A stretch of DNA of 36,986 nt from assembly GCA_031254105.1 (NCBI GenBank), contig JAIRVB010000025.1, forward strand, positions 1 through 36,986, read 5' to 3'. A program made the translations under genes and the position numbers. Each line of letters starts with the position of its first letter. The first letter of the stretch is position 1. This stretch comes from Chitinispirillales bacterium. GTDB lineage: Bacteria; Fibrobacterota; Chitinivibrionia; Chitinivibrionales; Chitinispirillaceae. The notes under the pieces were generated by a model. The model worked only from the letters and a program-made list of their open reading frames with translations. It did no database searches and was not told the origin of the DNA. Positions 3 to 19,956 of this stretch are shown in pieces.

Positions 3-104
3 CTAATTGTATTTGACCGTGATACAAAGAAAGCTTGGGAAGAAAAGATTTATATGAGAAAAGAATCTTTAGAGGGAAAAGTAATTACCGTAGCGGGATG
101 CTAA
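3..104 (+). CDS. 3' end of a gene, possibly AAA-ATPase/PD-(D/E)XK family protein (partial)
   Basis: An open frame runs in from the left edge and ends at TAA 102-104, giving a 33-residue tail that ends in VITVAGC. The pattern FDRD-x(4)-WEEKIY followed by EGK-x-I-x-V-x-GC resembles the C-terminus of a widespread family of predicted AAA ATPases with a PD-(D/E)XK nuclease-like C-terminal domain. This is recalled family similarity on a very short stretch, so the family call is tentative; the reading frame itself is clear. A gap of about 60 bases separates it from the next operon. Confidence 0.5.
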   Translation, partial: LIVFDRDTKKAWEEKIYMRKESLEGKVITVAGC

Positions 105-17533: not shown

Positions 17534-17566
17534 TTATTTCTGCATACTGAATTATTATTTCTGCAT
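17534..17566. repeat. 12-base direct repeat spanning kpsF stop
   Basis: TTATTTCTGCAT occurs at 17534-17545 and at 17555-17566 with a 21-base period; the second copy includes the kpsF stop codon. It looks like a small local duplication. Confidence 0.5.
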
Positions 17567-18163
17567 TGCTTCAAGAGGTCCCCTGGCCATCTGCCCTAAG
17601 TATCCTCCATGGTGGCGTAAACCATACTGTTCACGTGTGATGCCCTTTTTTTCCATTAAAACAAGAGTAAGCGAATCACCTATGGCCATCATCACCTGAG
17701 TGCTTGAGGTAGGGGTAAGCCCAAGGCAGCAAGGCTCTTTTATTTCTCCCATGTTTATTACAACGCTGCATAACTCACGTATTGCCGAATCTGGATGACT
17801 GGTGATCCCTATTATGTGGCCGATACCAAAATGATGCGCAAGCTCGAGCATCTCTATTATCTCACGAGTTTTACCGCTTGTAGAGAGCGCAATAATACAG
17901 TCGCCGCAAGATAAAATACCTAAATCTCCGTGCGCTGCTTCTCCTGGGTGCAGATAAGTTGCCGGAGTGCCGGTCGAACAGAGTGTTCCAGCTAACTTGA
18001 CAGCCATATTTCCGGCTTTCCCCATTCCGGTAGTGATGACTTTCCCCTTGCAGTTGTATAGAATATCTACAGCCTTTTCAAAGTTATGATCAAGCGGAAT
18101 GTTTTTTATCGCCTGAGCTTCAGCTTCTATAATCTCTTTTGCTCTGGAAAGAATAGCGCTCAC
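17555..18163 (-). CDS. single-domain SIS arabinose-5-phosphate isomerase (KdsD/KpsF-like)
   Basis: A 202-residue sugar isomerase domain. GKVITTGMGKAGNMAVKLAGTLCSTGTPATYLHPGEAAHGDLG and ALSTSGKTREIIE are the SIS-fold sugar-phosphate site of KdsD/GutQ/KpsF enzymes, which make arabinose-5-phosphate for Kdo and hence LPS. The paired CBS domains of E. coli KdsD are absent, as in the short Bacteroides forms. GTG 18163 is chosen because AAGGAG lies seven bases upstream. A promoter is predicted at 18201-18228. It is the first gene of a run with nadB and the VWA gene. The last four codons (ATG CAG AAA TAA) are repeated just downstream at 17534-17545. Confidence 0.88.
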   Translation of the reverse strand: MSAILSRAKEIIEAEAQAIKNIPLDHNFEKAVDILYNCKGKVITTGMGKAGNMAVKLAGTLCSTGTPATYLHPGEAAHGDLGILSCGDCIIALSTSGKTREIIEMLELAHHFGIGHIIGITSHPDSAIRELCSVVINMGEIKEPCCLGLTPTSSTQVMMAIGDSLTLVLMEKKGITREQYGLRHHGGYLGQMARGPLEAMQK

Positions 18164-18319: not shown

Positions 18320-19042
18320 TTATTCGATGTCACTGCTTGCAGGCGGCAGATTAAAATTTTTATTTTCGAGTATATTTTTTATTTCAGTTATAGACCGGCT
18401 TAATTCTTTTTCCACTCCAACTATTCTTCCTTCTAACTGTCCAAGCCTGTAAGCGATGTCAGCTGACAGGAAAATATTAGATGGCGGCGCTTCAGTTGTA
18501 TCACCAAAAAACCATGATATATTTCTCCCCGAGATGCGGGCAATTTTTTGAATCTGAAGAACATCAGGATTTCTCTCCCTCCTGAGCCAGTCTTTAATGA
18601 TATCCTCCGTGACACCTATCATATCAGCAAGCTTAGCATTGCTGTTGCCGCGCGCCTTTAATTCGTTGAGAGCCTGTTCTGCACGGTCGAGCACAAGGCC
18701 GCTGTAATCTATGTGTACTGATTCAGGTGCGATTTTTTTAACATCCGCTACCGATTCGGGTACTATTTCGGGAGACTCGTAATTTCCTTCTGCCAGAGGT
18801 GATCCGATTCCATTTTGCAAATATTCAACGTTGACATTATATACAGCGGCGATTTTTTGAATATCCGTTAATGTTGGCTTGTAGCCCTTCCGTTTAGGAT
18901 TGCACCACTCCGCAACAAGTTTTCCATCGCGCCCGATTTTTGCCCCAAAACGTCCTTTCGCTTTAGAATCAGAACCTTCTACAGTACGGACAATTTTAGC
19001 AATCCTTTGTTTTAATAAAAGATTCTCGTTTGATTTCGTCAT
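18320..19042 (-). CDS. tandem helix-turn-helix (XRE-like) repressor-type protein
   Basis: A 240-residue DNA-binding protein. Residues about 28-78 (RFGAKIGRDGKLVAEW ... TLTDIQKIAAVYNVNVEYLQNG) and about 131-175 (NAKLADMIGVTEDIIKDWLRRERNPDVLQIQKIARISGRNISWFFG) each read as an XRE/Cro-type HTH, separated by an acidic linker. The C-terminus (about 195-228) is a predicted coiled coil. There is no LexA-type peptidase domain. It faces three small genes across a 157-base region with two CGTA-type palindromes, one overlapping its own -10, suggesting autorepression and repression of the divergent operon. Two HTHs in one chain is unusual for a phage-like repressor. The regulatory role is inferred. Confidence 0.75.
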   Translation of the reverse strand: MTKSNENLLLKQRIAKIVRTVEGSDSKAKGRFGAKIGRDGKLVAEWCNPKRKGYKPTLTDIQKIAAVYNVNVEYLQNGIGSPLAEGNYESPEIVPESVADVKKIAPESVHIDYSGLVLDRAEQALNELKARGNSNAKLADMIGVTEDIIKDWLRRERNPDVLQIQKIARISGRNISWFFGDTTEAPPSNIFLSADIAYRLGQLEGRIVGVEKELSRSITEIKNILENKNFNLPPASSDIE

Positions 19043-19065
19043 AATTTTCCCTATTCATAAAAAAA

Positions 19066-19079
19066 TCGTAATTATACGA
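19066..19079. promoter_or_regulatory. palindrome over the HTH gene promoter
   Basis: TCGTA-ATTA-TACGA. Read on the minus strand its centre is TATAAT, a consensus -10 about 30 bases before the HTH gene start. Its centre is 32 bases, about three helical turns, from the second palindrome. Confidence 0.55.
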
Positions 19080-19086
19080 AAAATAC

Positions 19087-19115
19087 TTGCACATGCTTAC
19101 GAAAATTCGTATATT
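19087..19115 (+). promoter_or_regulatory. promoter of three-gene operon with embedded palindrome
   Basis: TTGCAC (19087-19092) and TATATT (19110-19115) with a 17-base spacer. The perfect palindrome TACGAA-AA-TTCGTA (19098-19111) fills the spacer and enters the -10, an ideal place for a repressor. Confidence 0.6.
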
Positions 19116-19122
19116 ATAACTA

Positions 19123-19161
19123 AGATAGCTCACAAAGCTTTCGAAGCTTGGAAAGCTATCT
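19123..19161 (+). promoter_or_regulatory. hairpin at the predicted 5' end of the operon transcript
   Basis: Outer stem AGATAGCT/AGCTATCT (8 bp) encloses AAGCTT/AAGCTT around TCG. The transcript should start near 19122, so the hairpin would form the very 5' end of the mRNA and may protect it. Confidence 0.45.
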
Positions 19162-19199
19162 GTTAAAGAATATAAAACAATTAAAAGGAAAGGTGGTAT

Positions 19200-19367
19200 A
19201 TGGTAATTCACGAAACTGTACCGGATGAGTTCGGTCAACGTAAGCATAATCTTGGACGCACGTATAACGGCGAGAAAATTACTTGGTTGATGATCATCAC
19301 CGAGGGGATGAAATCAATGGAAAAACTGGTAGGGGTGCAGGTTGCCGGGAAGGGAGAGGATAAATGA
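19200..19367 (+). CDS. small hypothetical protein, first gene of three-gene operon
   Basis: A 55-residue ORF, ATG 19200 to TGA 19367, with AAGGAAAGGTGG as a strong ribosome site. Its stop overlaps the next start (ATGA). The sequence begins MVIHETVPDEFGQRKHNLGR, contains TYNGEKITWLMIITEGMKSMEKL, and ends KGEDK. No family is recognised. Good ribosome site, tight coupling and a promoter upstream support it as real. It is too short to predict a fold beyond one helix around 27-44. Confidence 0.65.
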   Translation: MVIHETVPDEFGQRKHNLGRTYNGEKITWLMIITEGMKSMEKLVGVQVAGKGEDK

Positions 19368-19552
19368 CGCTGGAAGAATGGCTCCAGGCTCATGAGGATT
19401 ATATCTATAGCAGACAAAGGGTATCGCTCTTGAGAGACATTTTGCATGAATTCTCGCCTTATCGGGCAGAACTGATGGACGAATTGGAATTATTCAAAAA
19501 ATTCGGTATCGAAGATGTTTATTGGTGCGTAAAAGGAGAAAGCAATGAGTAA
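19364..19552 (+). CDS. small hypothetical protein, second gene of three-gene operon
   Basis: A 62-residue acidic, mostly helical protein (MTLEEWLQAHEDYIYSRQRV ... ELMDELELFKKFGIEDVYW). GGGAGAGG lies at good distance before ATG 19364, and the gene overlaps both neighbours (4 and 8 bases). No family is recognised. The coupling to its neighbours suggests the three proteins are made in fixed proportion. Confidence 0.65.
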   Translation: MTLEEWLQAHEDYIYSRQRVSLLRDILHEFSPYRAELMDELELFKKFGIEDVYWCVKGESNE

Positions 19553-19907
19553 AGAGATCATCACCATCCTTTCCGCTTTTGAAGCTATGGATCGTATAGG
19601 AGAAGTTCTCAGTGGATATGCCTGCCGTGCTGAGACTGCGGAGCGTGAGGTAGGCTACCTCAAAGAGCATTCTGCTGAGTTGGCGCAGAAAATCAAAAAT
19701 CTCGAGGGAAAACTTGACCGCGCAGAGCATGGCCTCAGTGTGACCCACAAGGAAAATGCGGAACTTACAGGGTGTAACATGGAACTTCACAAACAGAACA
19801 TGCAGCTGCAGGATCAACTCCGGCATGCCCAAGTAAACAATAATTTATGCGGAGAAACGGATATGCCCGAATGTTCTTCAGAAGAGATGTGCGTTGGTTC
19901 AGAATGA
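19545..19907 (+). CDS. coiled-coil hypothetical protein, third gene of three-gene operon
   Basis: A 120-residue protein with AGGAG seven bases before ATG 19545. Residues about 28-95 form a long predicted coiled coil (RAETAEREVGYLKEHSAELA, KIKNLEGKLDRAE, MELHKQNMQLQDQLRHAQ). The C-terminus carries three Cys in a short acidic tail (CGETDMPECSSEEMCVGSE), which might bind metal or form disulfides. No family is recognised. It overlaps the second gene by 8 bases and ends the operon; a GC-rich hairpin at 19932 follows. Confidence 0.7.
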   Translation: MSKEIITILSAFEAMDRIGEVLSGYACRAETAEREVGYLKEHSAELAQKIKNLEGKLDRAEHGLSVTHKENAELTGCNMELHKQNMQLQDQLRHAQVNNNLCGETDMPECSSEEMCVGSE

Positions 19908-19931: not shown

Positions 19932-19956
19932 TGGGGTGCGGATTAATCGCACCCCA
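19932..19956. terminator. GC-rich hairpin between convergent genes
   Basis: A perfect 9-bp stem TGGGGTGCG/CGCACCCCA around GATTAAT, between the coiled-coil gene and the convergent ykgJ-like gene. There is no T-run on either side, so termination would be factor-dependent; its loop and inner stem echo a second hairpin at 20598-20617. Confidence 0.45.

Follow-up and report, generated by a model that had tools for sequence, protein, structure and literature searches.

What kind of genetic element is the four-gene module that separates ykgJ from kpsF in this window, by which we mean the whole stretch of 36,986 nucleotides analyzed? The module consists of a gene for a 240-residue HTH protein placed opposite three overlapping ORFs of 55, 62, and 120 codons (Table 1). 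An earlier note on this DNA had proposed a self-contained switch, perhaps a phage remnant, an anti-phage module or a stress module. Our preferred reading, which we consider fairly probable, is that a phage-like element left its immunity (lysogeny-control) region between ykgJ and kpsF, either stranded there or retained by the host. The evidence comes from the layout of the genes, the regulator, the control region, the neighborhood, and a second locus in the same genome, and is discussed below together with three other explanations.

Table 1. Features of the module and its control region, in coordinates of the window unless indicated, and the second locus on contig C23
Feature	Position	Strand	Description
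Regulator (HTH gene)	18320-19042	-	240 aa
Regulator, first HTH	residues about 7-80		XRE-like, N-terminal
Regulator, second HTH	residues 128-178		HTH_3
Regulator, C-terminal helix	residues 193-227		long helix/coiled coil (predicted)
Palindrome op1	19066-19079		TCGTAATTATACGA; by its inferred placement, over the -10 of the regulator's predicted promoter
Regulator's predicted promoter	19071-19076 (-10)	-	perfect -10 (TATAAT) inside op1, poor -35; read from sequence
Predicted promoter of small-gene operon	19087-19115	+	TTGCAC (19087-19092), 17 bp, TATATT (19110-19115); consensus match only
Palindrome op2	19098-19111		TACGAAAATTCGTA; within the 17-bp spacer, touching the -10 of the predicted small-gene promoter
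Leader hairpin	19123-19160	+	-15.9 kcal/mol, z -3.85; at the inferred 5' end of the small-gene mRNA
Small gene 1	19200-19367	+	55 aa, no relatives found
Small gene 2	19364-19552	+	62 aa, helical by prediction
Small gene 3	19545-19907	+	120 aa, mostly coiled-coil-like sequence
G+C-rich hairpin	19932-19956	+	3' of the operon, possible transcript end, without a T run
Second locus (L031 485-2250)	G000:C23, about 104.1-105.9 kb		divergent HTH_3 repressor with repetitive tail; DUF739, broken 62-aa relative, two ORFan small genes, weak HTH_17

Gene Layout and Coding Signal

The divergent operon of three small proteins described in the earlier note is present, with overlaps of 4 nt (ATGA) and then 8 nt between successive ORFs and with good ribosome sites (GGTGG, GGGAG/GAGG, and AAGGAG). 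In-frame scores per codon, trained on 22 other genes of the window, are 0.223 (55-aa ORF), 0.165 (62-aa ORF), 0.166 (120-aa ORF), and 0.148 (HTH gene). The highest score among 174 spurious ORFs (0.158) is below those of all three small ORFs, and antisense ORFs across the module reach at most 0.062. Because of these scores relative to spurious and antisense ORFs, all four ORFs of the module are very probably coding.

A Tandem-HTH Regulator

The regulator was thought to carry two XRE-like HTH domains and a coiled coil. The second HTH is well supported (Pfam HTH_3, 1.3e-6 when searched alone), and the first is weak in Pfam (0.026), yet is matched by the phage-repressor profile phrog_4 at 3.7e-5. 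The whole protein matches phage-repressor profiles well (phrog_8, 3.4e-14; phrog_4, 3.7e-12; phrog_2328, 6.4e-11), and its two halves do so separately, the N-terminal half more weakly. A peptidase (self-cleavage) domain was not found in the regulator, and comparison of the regulator with PDB sequences gave nothing credible. A model built without an alignment is too poor for use (pLDDT 39), and only its long C-terminal helix, the basis of the putative coiled coil, is at moderate confidence.

Within the family, the closest sequence relatives of the regulator are phage-type HTH proteins with 26-30% identity in the second HTH only. One of them, a phage-type regulator with a coiled-coil-like C-terminal tail, is found near a Bro-N gene and an HTH_17 gene in a related genus (L003 792-1872, G010:C59), in what is probably a prophage.

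Palindromes and Predicted Promoters

The two palindromes reported earlier, built on CGTA and with starts 32 bp apart, are present and exceed chance by far. Each is the sole member of its class in the window, and whole-window shuffles average 0.02 for the class of TCGTAATTATACGA and 0.00 for that of TACGAAAATTCGTA. The 157-bp intergenic region holds four TACGA/TCGTA half-sites, a number reached by 1 of 20,000 dinucleotide shuffles. The half-sites of op1 and op2 are oppositely oriented, so the same binding mode of one dimer at both palindromes is not required.

Both promoters are placed by match to the consensus only, and a promoter scan is barely above expectation (11 versus 7.3 in shuffles). 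With this placement, the leftward transcript of the regulator would start at about 19064, the center of op2 would lie near -41 of that start, and the small-gene mRNA would start near 19122, where the leader hairpin begins. The palindromes would thus sit on both predicted promoters, as in phage operator regions. The presence of a candidate operator on each predicted promoter supports the view of the module as a compact, self-contained switch.

The leader hairpin, which the earlier note does not mention, may have a stabilizing or regulatory role; a search of Rfam gave no match. Elsewhere in the genome, palindromes of the TACGAANNTTCGTA class occur at three further places, two of them within genes, and these occurrences do not point to a regulon. 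One intergenic site (L043 1501-1515, G000:C5:188435) carries TTACGAAAATTCGTA in an exact copy, about 320 nt ahead of a seryl-tRNA-synthetase-like gene, and could be a distant target or a chance occurrence.

Genomic Setting and History of the Locus

The order of genes around the module is 678-aa gene, ykgJ, module, kpsF, nadB, 647-aa gene, and the distance from ykgJ to kpsF is 1.8 kb. The flanking genes carry the Pfam domains CxxCxxCC, SIS, and FAD_binding_2 plus Succ_DH_flav_C, and we take them, on these domains and general knowledge, to be ykgJ, kpsF, and nadB, respectively. In three genomes of the sister genus g10, ykgJ and nadB are adjacent, with 32 (L040), 26 (L076), and 190 nt (L078) between the aligned parts; the order in L040 and L076 is 678-aa gene, ykgJ, nadB, 647-aa gene. 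In several other genera of the family kpsF precedes nadB, and in the genome of the same genus, G001, an unrelated divergent gene lies upstream of nadB and the module is absent. Judged by gene order, the module is an extra piece within a conserved gene run. The SIS-domain gene at 17555-18163 is kpsF-like and stands beside nadB in several genera of the family; searches of the g10 genomes and of the same-genus genome gave no close match to it.

The module was not found in other genomes of the phylum, 168 of which were searched with the regulator and the 120-aa protein and 150-151 with the 55- and 62-aa proteins. Lack of conservation of the small ORFs in relatives had been named in advance as a result that would count against the earlier proposal. 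The small ORFs are indeed not conserved, but it is the whole module that is absent, which favors a mobile or lineage-specific locus rather than non-coding ORFs. Either the module was inserted in this lineage or it is an old locus that has been lost more than once, and the data fit both histories. Next to the module there is no integrase, structural or replication gene, and its edges show no clear attachment-site or insertion repeats. Both flanks are conserved host genes without a surrounding phage or integrative element, so a phage-like element would fit here only as a remnant.

The Small Proteins

In keeping with what had been noted before, none of the small proteins is recognized, and they have no full-length relative in the collections searched. 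Full-length relatives of the regulator are likewise absent from every collection searched. Besides the phylum genomes, the viral contigs and phages were searched with all four proteins, the genome contigs with the regulator and the 55-aa protein, and the plasmids with only the regulator and the 62-aa protein; at the sensitivity used, these gave only short or generic matches. The 120-aa protein shows composition-type matches only. The 55-aa protein matches a Ruminococcus contig (L074) over 17 residues, within the limits of a 696-aa ORF, and this match is attributed to chance; a match of the 62-aa protein (L029) was dismissed because it lies opposite a 519-aa gene. A model of the 62-aa protein is helical by prediction (pLDDT 80) and matches no PDB fold. 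None of the three small proteins matches an HTH family, as a Cro-like product of the first early gene would.

Short overlapping genes, an HTH partner, and palindromes of the autoregulatory type would also suit a host-owned regulatory, toxin-antitoxin or defense module, with the HTH protein as an antitoxin-like autoregulator and a toxin among the small proteins. Weak HTH matches to the antitoxin-type spr1629 (7.4e-5) and to the defense-associated RmrA (1.5e-5) point the same way, but they span the generic HTH only. The HTH gene, moreover, is divergent and outside the operon, and none of the small proteins matches a toxin, antitoxin or defense family. We regard this explanation as quite improbable. 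The anti-phage or stress role raised in the earlier note finds no support either, since the only PADLOC matches are to the regulator, over its generic HTH, and there are none to the small proteins.

A Second Immunity-like Locus

The last 23 residues of the 62-aa protein recur in a broken gene of the same genome, on contig C23 at about 105.2 kb. A search of the whole genome with the 62-aa protein gives a weak match (C23:105141-105251, E 0.0099) to a stretch encoding EPEFFKQIGLEDVYWKIETKNNQ-stop, which aligns with ELELFKKFGIEDVYWCVKGESNE-stop of the 62-aa protein. The alignment over 23 residues scores 69, which none of 20,000 shuffles reaches, and the two proteins have the common end FK(K/Q)(F/I)G(I/L)EDVYW. 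We consider the C23 gene broken because the reading frame of the copy lacks a usual start codon and the 32-aa ORF that precedes it is in a different frame. The stop codon of the copy and the start codon of the following small ORF overlap as ATGA. The pattern FK..G.xEDVYW was found 0 times in viral contigs, and a profile built from the two copies of the end gave no confirmed match.

The copy stands between a Cro-like gene (DUF739, 6.4e-14) and an HTH_17-like gene (0.001, under the curated cut-off). The C23 locus resembles the module in having an HTH_3 repressor that ends in a repetitive tail, probably a coiled coil, small overlapping ORFs that are divergent from it, and the common 62-aa end. 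It differs in its single-HTH repressor, in the presence of the DUF739 Cro-like and weak HTH_17 genes, and in its promoter region. The likeness covers only the last part of one protein of the module. Relatives of the 55- or 120-aa proteins are not detectable at the C23 locus, and no common ancestry with the locus is claimed for these two proteins; the resemblance of the 55-aa protein to the 32-aa ORF of C23 failed a shuffle test, with 1106 of 5000 shuffles reaching its score. Farther out at C23 lie an HSDR_N_2 gene and, close to it, two neighboring ORF6N genes of about 320 aa each (L032 1772-4261), the C-terminal parts of which are near-identical.

The recurrence at C23 bears on the simplest explanation, that the module is an ordinary orphan XRE regulator with a lineage-specific ORFan operon, without phage origin, and that the similarity to C23 arose by chance. 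Such an arrangement would account for the absence of phage structural genes nearby and of homologues from everything searched, and the genome has about 30 HTH_3 genes. The score of the C23 match, together with its place and strand in an immunity-like region, and the phage-repressor profiles on both halves of the regulator argue against it, and we consider it unlikely. The same profiles, the extra piece in a conserved gene run, and the recurrence of the 62-aa end speak for the phage remnant that the earlier note had suggested.

How an Immunity Switch Could Work Here

If the module is an immunity region, the 240-aa protein would be the repressor of the element. When occupying op2, it would lie over the promoter of the three early genes and hold their operon off. 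From the same site, near -41 of a promoter with a perfect -10 and a poor -35, it could activate its own gene. Binding to op1, over the -10, would shut off that gene at high repressor levels, much as at lambda OR. Early or switch functions, either Cro/antirepressor-like or accessory, would then fall to the small genes, and the third small protein would probably act via a coiled coil.

The opposite regulatory logic underlies another explanation, an induction module of a transcription factor (TF) and a small ORF (smORF), in which the HTH protein would switch the small genes on and one of their products would inactivate the repressor of a different phage or prophage. The layout is alike, since a DNA-binding protein is set against a counter-oriented, homologue-free small ORF in phage elements (PMC10432266), and the second phage-type repressor at C23 is a possible target. 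However, the position of op2, within the promoter spacer and touching the -10, is that of repression; the small genes are three, not one; and no complete prophage was identified in this genome. Activation of this kind seems improbable to us.

We therefore return to the immunity region as the preferred reading. On this reading the module would work like such a region, and it probably derives from one. Because neither a first gene of the Cro type nor a phage element around the module was found, we do not claim it as a complete member. If this reading is right, the module is a phage-type switch with three ORFans as early genes and with a repressor that is unusual in having a tandem HTH and no peptidase domain; as to the group from which it came, no related phage sequence was found in this analysis. 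The common end of the 62-aa protein would give an entry point to a family of small proteins from such switches, and the compact size of the module would allow it to be tested whole in a laboratory strain. A bolder extension, which we hold to be speculative and rather unlikely, is that the 62-aa proteins form a new switch-protein family in phage-like elements of this bacterial group, that the tandem-HTH coiled-coil regulator is non-cleavable and is induced via a small protein rather than by DNA damage, and that the host kept the switch after loss of the phage.

Comparison with Known Systems

The immunity region of lambda has three operators, a repressor with an HTH plus a peptidase domain, Cro, and replication and recombination genes that follow. 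The module resembles the lambda OR/CI-Cro system in having a divergent HTH repressor and early operon, palindromes on both predicted promoters, and matches to phage-repressor profiles, and its operator geometry would permit both autoactivation and autorepression. It differs in having two palindromes, not three, and a tandem HTH with a putative coiled coil, not an HTH with a peptidase domain, and it has no recognizable Cro and no replication or recombination genes downstream.

The TF-smORF modules also set a DNA-binding protein against a small ORF of unknown family; they resemble one another in logic but not in sequence. In those modules, a TF, in some cases of the XRE type, turns on a single smORF, which in turn inactivates cI (Silpe et al., 2023; PMC10432266), whereas in the present module the placement of the operators points to repression and the small genes number three. 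The study demonstrates that a regulator paired with a small protein that lacks homologues can form a real induction switch (Silpe et al., 2023).
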